Shown here piece by piece: positions 18,794 through 62,312 of a DNA stretch of 64,000 nucleotides. Source of the stretch: Anaerolineales bacterium. GTDB lineage: Bacteria > Chloroflexota > Anaerolineae > Anaerolineales > Villigracilaceae. Both the position numbers and the translations under genes were made by a program. Every line of letters starts with the position of its first letter. The first letter of the stretch is position 1. Location: contig JABTTV010000001.1 of assembly GCA_015075725.1 (NCBI GenBank), positions 4,579,223 to 4,643,222 of the forward strand. Reading direction: 5' to 3'. The notes beneath the pieces were generated by a model. The model searched no databases and was not told the origin of the DNA. It was given only the letters and a program-made list of their open reading frames with translations.

Positions 18794-19465
18794 TTAAGCC
18801 CGATCCATCAACCCCGCCCGGTCCAGAATTCGGATCTGCTGTTTATTCATTTCGATCAATCCTGCCTTGGTCAATTCGCGGATAACCCGGCCGAGCACAT
18901 CTGGAACGGTTCCGAGGCGGGCCGCAAGTTCGGTCTGATTCGTCCATCGTCGGCGCTCGATCAAATCCCCTTCGGCTTGATCCAGCAGCAACTGGATGAA
19001 CCGTGCTTCCACGCTCTTCAAGGATAGGTCCGCTGCGAGGGTCACCAGGCTGATGATCTTATCAGCCATGTTCTCGATGATCTGCAAAGCTGAACCTGGA
19101 TGCGCCAGAATTACTTCTTCCAGGGCATGGCGCGGAATCAGCCAGACACCTGACTCTTCCAGGGCAATCGCAGTGGCGGGATTTGCCTTTTTCGCAAGCA
19201 CGCCCACTTCATTGAATATCTCCCCTTCAGTAATAAATCTCAGTACCTGCTCGCGCCCGTCGGGCGATGCTTTCAACACTTTCAATGAGCCGTATTGCAG
19301 ATAAAACAGGTTCGACTCGACCTCTCCCTCCCAAAAAAGAACCTCATTAGGGGCGTAAACCTTCCAGGTGGAGCTCTCTGCCAGCCTTTTCAGGGTCTCG
19401 AAATCCAGACCGCGCAGGAAATCGAAACTTTGCAATCTTTTGAATAGAATCGCTTTATCTGCCAT
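18794..19465 (-). CDS. Crp/Fnr-family transcription regulator
   Basis: 223 aa. cNMP-binding-type beta-roll (about 18-135) followed by a dimer helix and a winged helix (TNQTELAARLGTVPDVLGRVIRELTKAGLIE). No N-terminal Cys cluster, so not an Fe-S FNR; a DNR/CooA-like heme sensor or ligand-binding type is possible. First gene of the operon with cupin, 4-TM, b561 and 12-TM proteins. Divergent from the ABC exporter leader, with about 40 bp between its start and the -35 of that promoter, so it could also influence it. Confidence 0.9.
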   Translation of the reverse strand: MADKAILFKRLQSFDFLRGLDFETLKRLAESSTWKVYAPNEVLFWEGEVESNLFYLQYGSLKVLKASPDGREQVLRFITEGEIFNEVGVLAKKANPATAIALEESGVWLIPRHALEEVILAHPGSALQIIENMADKIISLVTLAADLSLKSVEARFIQLLLDQAEGDLIERRRWTNQTELAARLGTVPDVLGRVIRELTKAGLIEMNKQQIRILDRAGLMDRA

Positions 19466-19503: not shown

Positions 19504-19533
19504 TTGACAACTCATCATACTCTCATGTAAACT
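19504..19533 (+). promoter_or_regulatory. Promoter of the ABC exporter operon
   Basis: Consensus -35 TTGACA at 19504-19509. Candidate -10 elements are TGTAAA at 19526-19531 (16-bp spacer) or TAAACT at 19528-19533 (18-bp spacer). Predicted start near 19540, giving a leader of about 215 nt before the exporter ATG. Confidence 0.7.
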
Positions 19534-19574
19534 CTGAACGCTATTAAATCTCAAAAGAAAGGAGCGCACTTCAA

Positions 19575-19655
19575 ATGTCGTTGCAATTGCTAAACCTGCG
19601 TAAGAAATCCAACCGAATAACGACTTACCCCGAAGTGCGCCTGTTGACCGTTTAA
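19575..19655 (+). CDS. 26-residue leader peptide upstream of ABC exporter
   Basis: ATG at 19575 with AAAGGAG about 10 nt upstream; reads MSLQLLNLRKKSNRIT then TYPEVRLLTV and TAA at 19653-19655. Too short to be a normal enzyme. The DNA around the start (GCGCACTTC, 19564-19572) is complementary to codons near the end (GAAGTGCGC, 19632-19640). Those codons (19635-19641) are in turn complementary to the left arm of the downstream terminator (19690-19696). This 1:2 versus 2:3 layout is that of a ribosome-controlled attenuator. Expression as peptide is inferred from the RBS and frame. Confidence 0.6.
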   Translation: MSLQLLNLRKKSNRITTYPEVRLLTV

Positions 19656-19682
19656 CCACGGCTCGATTTCCTGTGTCTTTCC

Positions 19683-19713
19683 AAAACACGGCGCACCCGC
19701 GCCGTGTTTTTTT
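19683..19713 (+). terminator. Intrinsic terminator/attenuator before the ABC exporter
   Basis: 12-bp perfect GC-rich stem (19683-19694 with 19699-19710, loop ACCC) followed by a run of seven T ending at 19713. It lies 28 nt after the leader ORF stop and 43 nt before the exporter start, on the same strand and behind the same promoter. Without antitermination it would block the operon. Confidence 0.85.
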
Positions 19714-19755
19714 GTCCGTTTTTTCCGTGAATCCGTTAGAAAGTCCGTTTACAAC

Positions 19756-21501
19756 ATGAACCTCTCATTCAAATCCTACTGGAACCTGCTCGCCGAACAC
19801 ATCCGCCCCCAGCGCGGACGGTTCATCCTGCTCGCCATGATGTTGTTCAGCAGCATCGGGTTAAAAATCTTCGCCCCGCAGATCATGCGTCTCTTTATCG
19901 ACGACGCGCTGGCAGGCGAAGCCCTTTCCACGCTGATGTGGACAGCCGCCGCATTCATCGGTATCGCGCTGTTACAGCAAGGCGTTCACATCGGCGTGAC
20001 CTACCTCGGCGAAAACGTGGCATGGACAGCCACCAACGCCCTGCGCGCCGAACTCGCCGAACACGCGCTCAAACTCGGCATGAAGTTCCACAACGACCAC
20101 ACGCCCGGCGAGTTGATCGAACGCATCGACGGTGACGTGACCGAGTTGGCAACCTTCTTCTCGCAGTTCGCGCTCAACCTCATCGCGAACGGACTTTTGC
20201 TCATCGGCATCCTCGTCACGCTTGCCATCGAAGATTGGCGCGTGGGCTTGGCATTCGCAGTTTACTCAGCGTTGACCATCGGCATCCTCGGCAGGCTCAA
20301 AGACATTGCCGTGCCACACCAGAAAGCAAGACGCGAAGCCGAAGGTCAGATGTACGGCTTTATTGAAGAACAACTGGCAGGCACCGAAGACATCCGCTCG
20401 AGCGGCGCGGTCGGCTTCTCCATCCGCGAACTCTTCCGCCATCAAGCCGAGATTCTCACGCATAATCGCCGCGCCCACTTCAAGCGCTGGATCATCGAAA
20501 ACGCGATGGGTCTCGCGCTCACCACTGGTACGCTGCTCGCCATCACCAGCGGATACTGGCTCTTCACCGCAGGCGTCGTCACCATCGGCACGGTTTATCT
20601 TTTCGTCCATTACCTCAATCTGCTCGAAGAACCGTTCTGGGCGATGACGCACGAGATCGAAAGTTTCCAGACGATTGGCGCCTGTGTGGAACGTTTGACC
20701 GAATTCAAGCAGTTCCAACCTGAAACCAAAAATGAGACCGGCAAAGTGATCGACACACATCCGCTCGCGTTGGAATTCAAGGATGTATCCTTTTCTTATA
20801 ACGGTGAAGACTCCGTCATCAAACGCCTCTCACTGGACCTCAAGCCTGCTTCTGTTTTGGGACTGCTTGGTCGCACCGGAAGCGGAAAGACCACCCTCGG
20901 ACGCTTGATCTTCAACCTGTATTCCGTCAACGAAGGCAGCATCAAAATCAACGGCGAAGACTTGCAGGACATTCAACTAGACTCGCTTCGTCAAAACATC
21001 GCCATTGTGACGCAAGATGTGCAACTCTTCCGCGCATCCATCCGCGAGAACCTGACCTTCTTCGACCGCTCGATCCCCGATGACAAGATCATCGCCACAC
21101 TTGAAGACCTCGAACTGGGCGACTGGTTCCGAACCCTCCCCAATGGTCTGGACACTCAACTGGAAACAGGATCAAGGTCGCTGTCCGCGGGTGAGGCGCA
21201 ATTGCTGGCGTTCACGCGAGTCTTCCTGCGGAATCCTGGTCTGGTCATCCTCGACGAAGCCTCATCCCGCCTTGACCCTGCCACCGAGCAGAAACTCGAA
21301 CACGCGATAGACAAACTGCTGCAAGGACGCACTGCCATCATCATCGCTCATCGGCTTGATACCCTGCACCGCGCCGATGACGTGCTCATCCTTGATAACG
21401 GCTCCGTGCTCGAATACGGCAACCGCAAAGAACTGGCATCCAACCCGAACGCAAGGTTTTATCAATTGCTGCAAACTGGCTTGGAAGAAGTTCTGGCGTA
21501 A
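19756..21501 (+). CDS. ABC exporter half-transporter, subunit 1 (catalytic Glu, altered signature)
   Basis: 581 aa. Six-TM type I exporter domain (about 15-310) then an ATPase domain. Walker A GRTGSGKTT, Q-loop VTQDVQ, signature LSAGE instead of LSGGQ, Walker B LVILDEAS with the catalytic Glu, switch HRLD. Together with the next gene it forms a heterodimer. This subunit contributes the complete Walker B to the active site and the altered signature to the degenerate site, as known for BmrC/D-like multidrug exporters. Substrate not predictable; multidrug or lipid export is likely. Confidence 0.95.
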   Translation: MNLSFKSYWNLLAEHIRPQRGRFILLAMMLFSSIGLKIFAPQIMRLFIDDALAGEALSTLMWTAAAFIGIALLQQGVHIGVTYLGENVAWTATNALRAELAEHALKLGMKFHNDHTPGELIERIDGDVTELATFFSQFALNLIANGLLLIGILVTLAIEDWRVGLAFAVYSALTIGILGRLKDIAVPHQKARREAEGQMYGFIEEQLAGTEDIRSSGAVGFSIRELFRHQAEILTHNRRAHFKRWIIENAMGLALTTGTLLAITSGYWLFTAGVVTIGTVYLFVHYLNLLEEPFWAMTHEIESFQTIGACVERLTEFKQFQPETKNETGKVIDTHPLALEFKDVSFSYNGEDSVIKRLSLDLKPASVLGLLGRTGSGKTTLGRLIFNLYSVNEGSIKINGEDLQDIQLDSLRQNIAIVTQDVQLFRASIRENLTFFDRSIPDDKIIATLEDLELGDWFRTLPNGLDTQLETGSRSLSAGEAQLLAFTRVFLRNPGLVILDEASSRLDPATEQKLEHAIDKLLQGRTAIIIAHRLDTLHRADDVLILDNGSVLEYGNRKELASNPNARFYQLLQTGLEEVLA

Positions 21502-21509
21502 GAGCAAAA

Positions 21510-21606
21510 ACCACAAAGGAGACAAAGAGGCACAAAGGTTTGCCCTGAGCCTGTCAAAGGGAAACCCGTCAAAAAACCTTTGTGTACCTTTGTGACCCTT
21601 CGTGGT
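21510..21606. repeat. Interrupted palindrome of ACCACAAAGG / CCTTCGTGGT type, copy 1
   Basis: The left arm 21510-21540 (ACCACAAAGG...CACAAAGG) and right arm 21575-21606 (CCTTTGTGTACCTTTGTGACCC then TTCGTGGT) are imperfect complements. Between them lies TGCCCTGAGCCTGTCAAAGGG (21541-21561), a separate palindrome-like motif. A second copy is at 23433-23504. It lies between the two exporter genes without breaking either. Confidence 0.85.
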
Positions 21607-21622
21607 AAGGAAAGAATTTACA

Positions 21623-23434
21623 ATGACCGAAACAACCCTCAACCCAAAAGACCTCAACATCCCCGCCCTGCCCGCGTGGAAAGTTGTGCTCGAACTCATC
21701 CGCTTTCGCCCCTGGCTGTGGATTGTTGACCTCGTTAGCGTCGCGCTCATTCGCTTCTGCTGGCAGGTTGCACCCGCACTCATCATCAAAGCCTTCTTCG
21801 ATATGTTAACCGGTGAAGCGCCACTAACCTTTGGCATTTGGGCAGTCGTCGCTTTCCTCGCCGCCACCTGGCTTGGACGTGTCCTCGCCAGTTACGGGTT
21901 TTATTATGCCGACGTGCCCATCTTCGCAGATATGGGCACGCTCCTGCGAAAGAATTTGCTGACGCACATTCTCAAACGCCCTGGCGCGTCGCAACTGCCC
22001 GACTCAGCGGGTGAAGCCGTCAGCCGCTTCAAAAACGATGTGCAGGAATTGCCGCTCTTCGTCATCCTTGTCAACGATGTGATGGTTGGCTTGGCGATCA
22101 TCGCCGTTTCCATCGTATTGATGACGCAGATCAGCCCTTCGGTCACGGTGATGGCGCTGATTCCATTGGTCATCGTCGGCATCGTTGCCAACATCGCCAC
22201 CAAACGCATCGAACATTATCGCAGCGCGTCGCGTCAATCTGCGGGCAAAGTGACAGGCTTCATCGGTGAATTCTTTGGCGCAGTGCAAGCCGTGAAGATC
22301 GCCACCGCTGAAAAGAATATCATCAATCATTTTCACAGCATCAACGATGAACGACGCAAGTTAACCGTCCGCGAAAAACTTTTCGACGAAGTACTCGGCT
22401 CGCTTTACCGCAACACCTCCACACTGGGCACGGGTGTCATCCTGATCCTCGTCGGTCAGTCCATGCGCACTGGCAACTTCACCCTCGGCGACTTTTCGCT
22501 CTTCGTCTACCTCCTGCAAAGCATGGGCGACCTCACCACCTTCGGCGGCATGCTGTGGGCGCGTTACAAACAAATGGACGTCTCCGTCAAACGCATGTAC
22601 CGCCTGATGGAAAATGCCTCGCTGGATGCGCTCGTTGAACATGCACAAATAGATCTGGATGGCGACTTGCCCGAAGTGACCTACCCGACCAAAACCGCCT
22701 CAGACCGACTGAATGAACTGGTCGCTGACCATCTGACCTTTCACTACCCGAACTCGGTCAACGGCATCGCAGACATTTCGCTCAAAATCAAACGCGGCTC
22801 GCTGACGGTCATCACAGGTCGCATCGGTTCCGGCAAGACGACACTGCTCCGCACATTGCTGGGTTTGCTCCCCGCCGATTCAGGCGAAATTCGCTGGAAC
22901 GGACAAGTCATCACCGACGCTGGCAATTTCTTCGTCCCGCCACGTGTGGCTTATACCGCGCAAGTACCGCGTTTGTTCAGCAACACCCTGCGGAACAACA
23001 TCCTGCTCGGCTTGAACCGTAGTGATGACGATATCTACAAAGCGACCAAACTCGCCGTCATGGACAGAGACTTGGAAATCCTCGATGACGACCTCGAAAC
23101 AATGGTCGGCTCACGTGGAGTCAAACTCTCTGGCGGACAAGCCCAACGCACCGCCGCCGCCCGCATGTTCATCCGCGACACGGAATTGGTCGTCTTCGAT
23201 GACCTTTCCAGCGCACTGGACGTGGAAACCGAACGTCAACTCTGGGAGCGCATCTTTGAATCAGGCAACGAATTAACTTGTCTCGTCGTCTCCCATCGCC
23301 GTCCACTTTTGAGGCGCGCAGACCACATCATCGTCCTCAAAGACGGCAAAGTCGAATCCGAGGGCACACTCGACGAACTCCTGGAGAGGAGCCCGGAAAT
23401 GCGCGAACTTTGGAAATTGGAAGAACAACAATAA
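21623..23434 (+). CDS. ABC exporter half-transporter, subunit 2 (degenerate Walker B)
   Basis: 603 aa. The start at 21623 has GGAAAG about 10 nt upstream; the in-frame GTG at 21602 lies in the repeat. Six TM helices then ATPase domain: Walker [10 protein letters not shown], canonical signature LSGGQ, Walker B LVVFDDLS, where the catalytic Glu is Asp, and HRR in the switch position in place of the usual HRL. This is the complement of subunit 1, giving one consensus and one degenerate ATP site, the standard arrangement in heterodimeric exporters. Confidence 0.95.
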
Positions 23435-24033: not shown

Positions 24034-25455
24034 ATGGACATCATCACAGGAAAGATCCTGAAACTCAACAACTGGCAAGATGGAAAAAGTATCGGACTTG
24101 CAAAAGAAGCCGGAAACAAAATGATCGCTAACGGCATGGAACGCGACGCGGCTCTTGCTCAACTCGAAGCTGTTCGCGCCAACCCAGGCAATTACCTCGC
24201 TGACAGTTTACTTGCCGACCTTGCCCGCGAGATTCTGCGCAAGAATAAAAACAACGAAGCCTCTGTCGAAGAACTTCGCGAATCGCCTCTGCCTTTCCCC
24301 ATTTGGGGCGCAGAACAGATTGAACAGGGCGCAATTCAGCAGATGGAAAACGCCATGCGCCTGCCTGTGACTGTCACTGGCGCGCTCATGCCGGATGCGC
24401 ACGTCGGTTATGGTCTGCCCATTGGCGGTGTACTGGCGACCGAGAATGTCGTCATCCCCTACGCCGTCGGTGTGGACATCGCCTGCCGTATGCGCCTGTC
24501 GTTATATGAGGTCTCACCGATCCTTATCGGACAGAAGAAGGGCATGTTCGAGGAATCCTTGTGGAATGAAACCGCCTTCGGTATGGGCGCTTCATGGAAA
24601 GGCAGTAAACGCGCCCAACATCAAGTGCTTGACGATGAAGCATGGCTGGCAACCAAGCAACTACGGACGTTGAAAGACACCGCCATGAATCAAATTGGCA
24701 CCAGCGGCACGGGCAATCACTTTGTGGAATGGGGCTCGTTTCGCCTGCATGAACCGATGTTTGGATTACAGCCCGGCGAATATCTCGCCTTGCTCTCGCA
24801 CAGCGGCTCGCGCGGAGTCGGCGCGAAGATCGCAGACCGCTTCAGTAAACTGGCAATGGAGAAACACCCCGACCTCGATAAGAGTGTCCGCCATTTGGCT
24901 TGGCTCACTCTGGATTCAGAAGATGGTCAGGAATACTGGCTTTCGATGGAATTGGCAGGTCGATTCGCCTCGGCGAATCACTACATCATCCACAAACGCG
25001 TGGCTGCAACTGTTGGGCTGAAGGAAGTGGCGGTGGTTGAAAATCACCACAACTTTGCCTGGCGCGAAACACTGCCCGATGGGCGTGAAGTCATCGTCCA
25101 TCGCAAGGGAGCTACGCCTGCGGGTGTGGGAGTTCTCGGCGTGATCCCCGGCTCGATGGGAGATGCAGGCTACGTCGTCCGTGGAAGAGGCGTGAGCGAG
25201 TCGCTTGAGTCCGCTTCGCATGGAGCCGGTCGCAGAATGAGCCGGAAGGCTGCCATCAATTCCATCAGCAAGCGCGAACGGGACGACTACCTCAAAGAGC
25301 GCGGAGTAACCTTGCTTGGCGGCGGTATCGATGAAAGTCCGCAGGCATACAAAGCGATCGATGAGGTCATCACCGCCCAGCACGACTTGGTGGAGGTGAT
25401 CGGAAAGTTCACCCCGCGCATCGTCCGCATGGCGGATGAGCCGGGCGATATTTAG
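24034..25455 (+). CDS. rtcB: RtcB RNA-splicing ligase
   Basis: 473 aa. Joins 2',3'-cyclic phosphate or 3'-phosphate and 5'-OH RNA ends using GTP and Mn2+. Signatures: GVDIACRM with the Mn-binding Asp and Cys, GTSGTGNHFVEWG, SHSGSRGVG, the guanylylated His in SHGAGRRMSR, and the C-terminal GGGIDESPQAYK. Length is normal. Bacterial RtcB usually functions in RNA repair after damage by ribotoxins. No archease or RtcA gene is adjacent. Confidence 0.96.
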   Translation: MDIITGKILKLNNWQDGKSIGLAKEAGNKMIANGMERDAALAQLEAVRANPGNYLADSLLADLAREILRKNKNNEASVEELRESPLPFPIWGAEQIEQGAIQQMENAMRLPVTVTGALMPDAHVGYGLPIGGVLATENVVIPYAVGVDIACRMRLSLYEVSPILIGQKKGMFEESLWNETAFGMGASWKGSKRAQHQVLDDEAWLATKQLRTLKDTAMNQIGTSGTGNHFVEWGSFRLHEPMFGLQPGEYLALLSHSGSRGVGAKIADRFSKLAMEKHPDLDKSVRHLAWLTLDSEDGQEYWLSMELAGRFASANHYIIHKRVAATVGLKEVAVVENHHNFAWRETLPDGREVIVHRKGATPAGVGVLGVIPGSMGDAGYVVRGRGVSESLESASHGAGRRMSRKAAINSISKRERDDYLKERGVTLLGGGIDESPQAYKAIDEVITAQHDLVEVIGKFTPRIVRMADEPGDI

Positions 25456-62089: not shown

Positions 62090-62312
62090 GAGGACGCACG
62101 ATTCTATAATCATGCGTCCTCTGTAATGGAACCTGAGAGATTATCCCTTGGGGGATTTACACCGTCGGTGTCTCATGGAATGAGACTTTCCAGAGTTATA
62201 CAGCAGCAGGGTCCTTTTGCCTGAGAGTTTCATCCGGTTTCGCCTTGTTCCCGGATTTGCACCTTCGGCGTCCCGCCAGGGCGGGATCTCTTCCCTGTAA
62301 ACTGTTAGGTTA
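62090..62312 (-). promoter_or_regulatory. Tandem glycine riboswitch with expression platform
   Basis: On the minus strand, two GcvT-type aptamers in series: the 5' one carries GACGCCGAAGGTGCAAATCC and ACTCTCAGGCAAAAGGACC, the 3' one carries GACACCGACGGTGTAAATCCC and ATCTCTCAGGTTCC. A 14-bp near-perfect hairpin follows (62090-62103 with 62108-62121), the likely on/off element, then gcvH 42 nt later. Glycine binding turns on the glycine cleavage genes in known examples. Confidence 0.95.

Follow-up and report, generated by a model that had tools for sequence, protein, structure and literature searches.

How is the expression of a pair of ABC exporter genes controlled by the leader that precedes them, and to what signal would this leader respond? 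The locus lies in a 64,000-nucleotide stretch of the genome of an Anaerolineales bacterium (GenBank assembly GCA_015075725.1, contig JABTTV010000001.1, positions 4,579,223 to 4,643,222), hereafter the window, with coordinates counted from its first nucleotide. A previous sequence-only reading proposed that the leader (19504-19755) contains, in this order, a promoter with a consensus -35 element, a ribosome-binding site, a 26-codon open reading frame (ORF) and a strong intrinsic terminator, and that it acts as a ribosome-dependent attenuator.

The leader and the exporter genes

Re-reading of the window sequence located every element at the position where it had been placed:

19504-19533, + strand: sigma-70-type promoter (TTGACA at 19504-19509, 18-nt spacer, TAAACT at 19528-19533; 10/12 matches)
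19557-19564, + strand: Shine-Dalgarno (SD) sequence of the leader ORF, GAAAGGAG; its last G doubles as base 1 of segment 1
19564-19572, + strand: segment 1, GCGCACTTC, putative left arm of an anti-antiterminator; 9 bp with 19632-19640, with covariation
19575-19655, + strand: leader ORF MSLQLLNLRKKSNRITTYPEVRLLTV, 26 codons (ATG, 19575; TAA, 19655); segment 2 lies outside the usual RSAP frame
19632-19641, + strand: segment 2; in folding, its partner is segment 1 or segment 3
19684-19713, + strand: intrinsic terminator (stem 19684-19694 with 19699-19709; T-run 19707-19713)
19690-19696, + strand: segment 3 (GGCGCAC), within the left arm and loop of the terminator
19756-21501, + strand: ABC exporter half 1 (ABC_membrane and ABC_tran); catalytic Glu kept, signature LSAGE (motifs by eye)
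21602-23434, + strand: ABC exporter half 2 (ABC_membrane and ABC_tran); catalytic Glu replaced by Asp (FDDLSS), signature LSGGQ (motifs by eye)

Segment 1 and segment 2 (GAAGTGCGC at 19632-19640) are perfectly complementary over 9 bp, and part of segment 2 (GTGCGCC, 19635-19641) is perfectly complementary over 7 bp to segment 3, which extends from the terminator left arm into the loop; both pairings had been correctly called. The terminator sits between the leader ORF and the exporter gene, and the gap to the exporter ATG is short, as claimed, although the count from 19713 to 19756 is 42 nt rather than 43. The 221-nt leader has a predicted folding energy of -55.3 kcal/mol, compared with -44.9 kcal/mol for shuffled sequences (z = -2.53; 2 of 200 shuffles were as good). 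A consensus terminator scanner did not list the window terminator, though the hairpin is plain in the predicted fold.

Heterodimeric exporters typically retain the catalytic Glu in one ABC half and lack it in the other. The motifs of the two adjacent halves identify the window exporter as heterodimeric, with one degenerate ATP site, in agreement with the earlier assignment. Among the neighboring genes, an RtcB-type RNA ligase is encoded 3' of the exporter (24034-25455), and relatives of this ligase also lie 3' of the same exporter at several other loci; at locus L159, a leader precedes an RtcB-like gene. A divergent gene for a Crp/Fnr-type regulator (18794-19465, minus strand) adjoins the leader, and a glycine riboswitch (RF00504, 56.4 bits) is located at 62199-62305 on the minus strand.

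Relatives of the leader in Anaerolineae

A blastn search with the window leader revealed two further copies in the same genome, the second, which first showed as two collinear partial matches, before another heterodimeric ABC exporter pair, and the third before GNAT acetyltransferase genes. Four other blastn matches (C1:2382052, C1:114159, C1:3985227 and C1:2841526) were rejected by eye as containing no such leader. The pattern GGAGCGCACN{45,75}GTGCGCC was present in 70 of the 150 family genomes; the reversed control pattern was far rarer, with 10 matches spread over 9 of these genomes, so the leader pattern reflects more than chance. About 100 pattern sites were inspected by eye and 79 judged real, including the 3 in the window's own genome; 60 of the other 76 were fetched, which together with the own-genome copies makes up a set of 63 leaders. 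These share a common order, namely, an SD sequence merging into GCGCAC, a start codon, 22-32 codons, AGTGCGCC or a near variant close to the ORF end, and a terminator, the left part of which contains GGCGCAC or a near variant in all 63. A promoter-like site, with a -10 element that is mostly TAAACT, precedes 59 of the 63 leaders, compared with 28 of 310 control windows.

A covariance model (R1) was built from an alignment of 61 of these 63 leaders (A1; L059 and L102 omitted), in which AAAGGAG of the SD region is invariant, and was run with a cut-off of E <= 0.01. It matched 182 of 301 genomes of the order (119 of the 175 good ones), 71 of 298 genomes of the class, where some matches near E 0.001-0.01 may be due to chance, and 22 of 301 genomes in the phylum sample, with none outside the class among the matches listed. 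The matching relatives listed include Anaerolineales, Candidatus Villigracilaceae and other Chloroflexi MAGs. A search that started from the proteins, in 61 family genomes, yielded 12 relatives of exporter half 1, with a leader directly upstream in all 10 of those with at least 68% identity and in neither of the 2 with at most 50%; the second exporter was found in 52 of the 61 genomes, and for the best 30 of the 52 loci, a leader is present upstream in 30 of 30. Sequence comparison thus identifies the window leader as a member of a homologous RNA family that is class-wide in Anaerolineae, which makes the observation far larger than the single leader noticed before.

Outside Chloroflexota, R1 matched two Clostridia MAGs (L278:1455-1608, 44.5 bits; L292:4745-4897, 27.7 bits), in both cases before MFS genes; these matches may stem from common ancestry, from transfer or from convergence. 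The GGAGGGCGCAC-ATG...AGTGCGCC design also characterizes leaders in the Oscillospirales genera Faecalibacterium, Gemmiger and Fournierella (L240, L258, L270, L276, L283 and L291). In L240, L258, L270 and L283, the next gene encodes an efflux-like MFS protein and a hairpin overlaps its SD sequence; the L240 protein gives TetA(P)-like scores with NCBIfam, weak only.

Covariation and conservation of the pairing segments

The sequence-only reading had named covariation among related leaders as a check on the pairing. Across relatives, segments 1 and 2 (1:2) and the terminator arms (3:4) covary, and the complementarity of segments 2 and 3 (2:3) is kept, as the following alignments indicate. In A1, the pair 17-99, which extends the 1:2 helix, is CG in 18 leaders, AU in 15, UA in 13, GU in 2, UG in 1 and another combination in 11 (n = 60), and both sides change at 8 of 11 terminator pair positions; A1 was found by an exact pattern, so that its fixed cores prove nothing on pairing. 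A fairer set consists of the 39 leaders found through their proteins (A5; an apparent duplicate, L388, omitted). Here, columns 20-93 contain CG 14, AU 7, UA 6, UG 5 and others 7, columns 17-96 contain AU 31, GC 4 and GU 4, and over the whole 1:2 and terminator structure 93.7% of the cells are paired, compared with 84.1% when the partners are shuffled. In the divergent set of 86 leaders (A2), which was found by the R1 model and aligned by fitting to it, both sides change at 7 of 9 pairs of the main 1:2 helix. Individual compensations are apparent by eye, such as GGCACAC/GUGUGCC in L209 and GGCGCAA/UUGCGCC in L181.

For 2:3, 97.0% of the cells are paired in A1 and 95.2% in A5, and the shuffle control gave 500/500 and 23/500, respectively; these tests have little power because segment 2 hardly varies, and 2:3 slid by 2 still pairs 63-79% of the cells because of the GCGC repeat. 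Better evidence for 2:3 comes from the loop: across the family, segment 2 stays complementary to the terminator left arm and, partly, to the loop, and in A1, the two bases of segment 3 that lie beyond the stem have a pairing partner in segment 2 in 61 and 57 of the 61 leaders. Among the divergent leaders, 16 have a loop of 8 nt or more; the longest stretch of these loops that is complementary to segment 2 has a mean length of 5.56, compared with 3.50 for shuffled loops, the excess being absent in 4 of the 16.

Predicted folding and the proposed switch

When only the left arm of the window terminator is present, the free RNA is predicted to form 1:2 (P = 0.99), and masking 19560-19590, as by a ribosome at the AUG, moves segment 2 to the terminator left arm (2:3, P = 0.99), much as had been anticipated for a ribosome held at the leader start. 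With a ribosome at the stop codon, no 2:3 is predicted and 1:2 forms only in part. The anti-antiterminator and antiterminator are mutually exclusive in the predicted structures, and comparison across the class shows a conserved architecture in which segment 2 can pair with segment 1 or with the terminator left arm but not with both. Once the whole terminator is present, 3:4 dominates the equilibrium whatever the ribosome state (P = 0.99). The finished terminator thus always wins at equilibrium, so in the folding model, antitermination must be kinetic, that is, a matter of timing.

Throughout the family, a ribosome at the start is predicted to allow 2:3 of at least 5 bp in 139 of 146 leaders, compared with 65 of 146 with shuffled arms; without a ribosome, 2:3 of this length forms before the right arm appears in 69 of 146, so that 1:2 is not always dominant. 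When the ribosome is moved along the ORF, 2:3 is predicted in 142 of 146 leaders at codon 3, in about half by codons 5-8 (A1), and in none of the 61 A1 leaders from codon 20 onwards. For the window leader, 2:3 is predicted to be favored also when the ribosome stalls at codons 12-14 or 16, and the point of sensing is thus poorly defined.

These comparisons and folding models make it very probable, in our estimation, that the leader is a ribosome-dependent switch composed of an anti-antiterminator, an antiterminator and a terminator, turned on by ribosomes held within the first four or so codons. The promoter and ORF would yield a short constitutive transcript. During normal translation, the ribosome would either quit segment 1 fast, such that 1:2 forms, or cover segment 2 near the stop codon; by either route, the terminator would form and the exporter would stay off. 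A ribosome halted at the start or by about the fourth codon, as might happen when a drug arrests initiation or early elongation, would cover segment 1, segment 2 would then catch the emerging terminator left arm, and the polymerase would read into the exporter genes. The inducer would probably be a translation-blocking drug, and the codon scan predicts the best inducers to be drugs that stall ribosomes on the start codon or immediately beyond it.

Genes downstream of the leaders and the nature of the signal

The pattern-found and divergent sets together make 149 leaders (63 + 86), which do not sample the family independently. Their first classified gene encodes an ABC exporter half in 90 cases, a GNAT acetyltransferase in 33, a DrrA-like ABC ATPase in 9, a HAD protein in 3, a RIO kinase in 3, RsgA in 2, an ABC-2 permease in 1 and an MFS protein in 1, with none in 7. 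The RsgA gene is preceded by a leader in both family genomes that have it (2 of 12 genomes); a leader lies directly upstream of the RIO kinase gene in 3 of 9 relatives, with the match at L395, about 1 kb from the gene, left out of the count. The efflux proteins and drug-modifying enzymes fit antibiotic sensing, and the copies before the RsgA GTPase and RIO kinase genes suggest a broader connection with disturbed ribosomes.

The attenuator might therefore work as proposed and yet respond to generally slow translation or to trouble in ribosome assembly, rather than to antibiotics. The copies before RsgA and RIO kinase genes speak for such a signal, as does the free variation of leader codons 2-12, but most copies precede efflux pumps and acetyltransferases, which would be useless against general slow translation, and we consider this reading possible but the less likely one. 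The homologous copies would place many efflux and acetyltransferase genes and some ribosome-maintenance genes under the same control. Antibiotic-sensing attenuators are known mostly as single loci, usually in Firmicutes or Actinobacteria. Anaerolineae could possess a dispersed cis-regulon for translation stress, in which one homologous attenuator RNA was copied before genes for efflux pumps, acetyltransferases, the ribosome-assembly factors RsgA and RIO kinase, and perhaps RNA repair (RtcB). Every operon would then sense ribosomes for itself rather than depend on a single master regulator like WhiB7; we hold the chances of this scenario to be about even. A single RNA family here serves resistance genes and ribosome-care genes that are unrelated to one another, in a phylum of which few members have been cultured, and the presence of a family member in a genome would flag genes that answer to stuck ribosomes and may reveal unrecognized resistance factors.

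The leader ORF and its peptide

Of 147 leaders taken, 145 could be framed. In 135 of the 145 leaders, segment 2 is read in one shared frame that gives ...RSAP..R-stop (131 by script and, after the script had misplaced segment 2, 4 by eye: L157, L158, L166 and L219); together with the SD sequence and the start codon, this suggests that the leader ORF may be translated. The other 10 have another frame over segment 2 or a stop there (the window, L073, L184, L123, L212, L227, L170, L179, L222 and L226). All 10 keep the nucleotides of segment 2. The window leader and L073 read EVRLLTV, and a pattern-found leader of genome G100 groups with them in a window clade with the changed frame. Because the 10 leaders span several families of the class, we infer that the frame changed more than once. 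These natural frame changes are a built-in test of RNA against peptide, and they indicate that the RNA, not the peptide end, is what is conserved, the RSAP..R end being usually conserved because the RNA is. The expectation of a non-conserved peptide thus holds for the variable part, which is under weak constraint (pN/pS of 0.54-0.88 across the four length classes that offer 8 or more compared pairs), and fails for the end.

The conserved peptide end, PSRSAPVDR-stop, might alternatively be an arrest peptide through which a ligand or a stress is sensed where the leader ends, with RNA conservation secondary. The occurrence of RSAP..R in nearly all leaders, the use of TCT for some Ser codons in one leader and AGC in another, and the tail pN/pS of 0.32-0.77 (four larger length classes) could be read this way. 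Against this stand the 10 of 145 leaders, the window included, that change frame or stop at segment 2; moreover, Ser-Ala-Pro within segment 2 is almost always encoded by AGT GCG CC, the codon before AGT specifies Arg, Trp, Cys, Leu or Gln, as pairing with the variable segment-1 ends predicts, and in the scan, a ribosome stalled at the tail covers segment 2 and the terminator is kept. We therefore rejected the RSAP arrest peptide as improbable.

Less probable still is a ligand-binding riboswitch with an incidental ORF. The leader is terminator-controlled and its 1:2 stem is conserved, as would be expected of a riboswitch, but strong conservation is confined to the three pairing segments, the SD sequence and the start codon, and the stretch between varies in length by whole codons, its frame staying open. 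Rfam gave no match to the leader element at the gathering score in the window and 12 related loci, and no credible match to the leader at E up to 1; Chloroflexi-1 (RF01698, listed in PMC2864571) does not match the leader either. A riboswitch or other known RNA family was rejected on the basis of the Rfam results. Amino-acid-starvation attenuation of the trp or ilv type, which shares the leader ORF, terminator and alternative pairing, is the least credible of all because none of the codons forms a run or is in strong excess over 144 leaders (the highest amino acid, Asn, reaches only 2.5-fold) and the downstream genes are not biosynthetic.

Most exporter leaders also contain a small GACC...GGTC hairpin over the stop codon (19643-19660 in the window, and equivalents), possibly a polymerase pause hairpin. 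It is absent from the GNAT leaders examined and was dismissed as a general part of the switch.

Comparison with known systems

The comparisons below draw on the consulted passages of the cited papers. Listings from the open-licence literature contained no description of such an attenuator for Chloroflexi or Chloroflexota, and neither Chloroflex nor Anaerolinea occurs in the passages from PMC11109978 and PMC8632094, both surveys of newly found bacterial RNAs; erm leaders from Chloroflexota are marked in a figure legend of PMC11264731. In the toiL uORF before topAI of E. coli, several antibiotic classes are sensed, with tetracycline and retapamulin acting at the start codon, where they hold ribosomes; that system operates mainly through Rho and the unmasking of the ribosome-binding site of the gene (PMC12121999), whereas the window leader would use an intrinsic terminator.

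By analogy, the switch logic proposed for the window equals that of bmrCD, hflXr and vmlR. The lincomycin-inducible bmrCD genes of Bacillus subtilis, with which the sequence-only reading had compared the locus, likewise encode a heterodimeric ABC exporter preceded by a leader ORF (bmrB) and a terminator (PMC4191407). The likeness is one of logic: the bmrB terminator is inside a 53-codon ORF, but the window ORF ends at 19655 and the terminator starts at 19684, 28 nt past the end of the 26 codons and hence outside the ORF, so that we rejected a BmrB-type leader, the relation to bmrB at the sequence level being judged through Rfam alone. In hflXr (rli80) of Listeria monocytogenes, a short ORF also overlaps the anti-antiterminator, mutation of the start codon blocks induction, and the regulated gene acts on ribosomes; unlike the window leader, this is a single locus with a 14-aa peptide that carries an RLR macrolide motif (PMC6310831).

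In vmlR of Bacillus subtilis, too, the order is anti-antiterminator, antiterminator and terminator, the uORF starts in the first hairpin, the antiterminator becomes available when a ribosome is held at the start, and variants of the uORF sequence still work; unlike the window leader, vmlR has a three-codon uORF, an ABC-F gene and an extra hairpin that hides the SD sequence of the gene (PMC9226507). The vmlR switch is described for one gene in Bacilli (PMC9226507), whereas the leaders analyzed here form a family that precedes unrelated genes.
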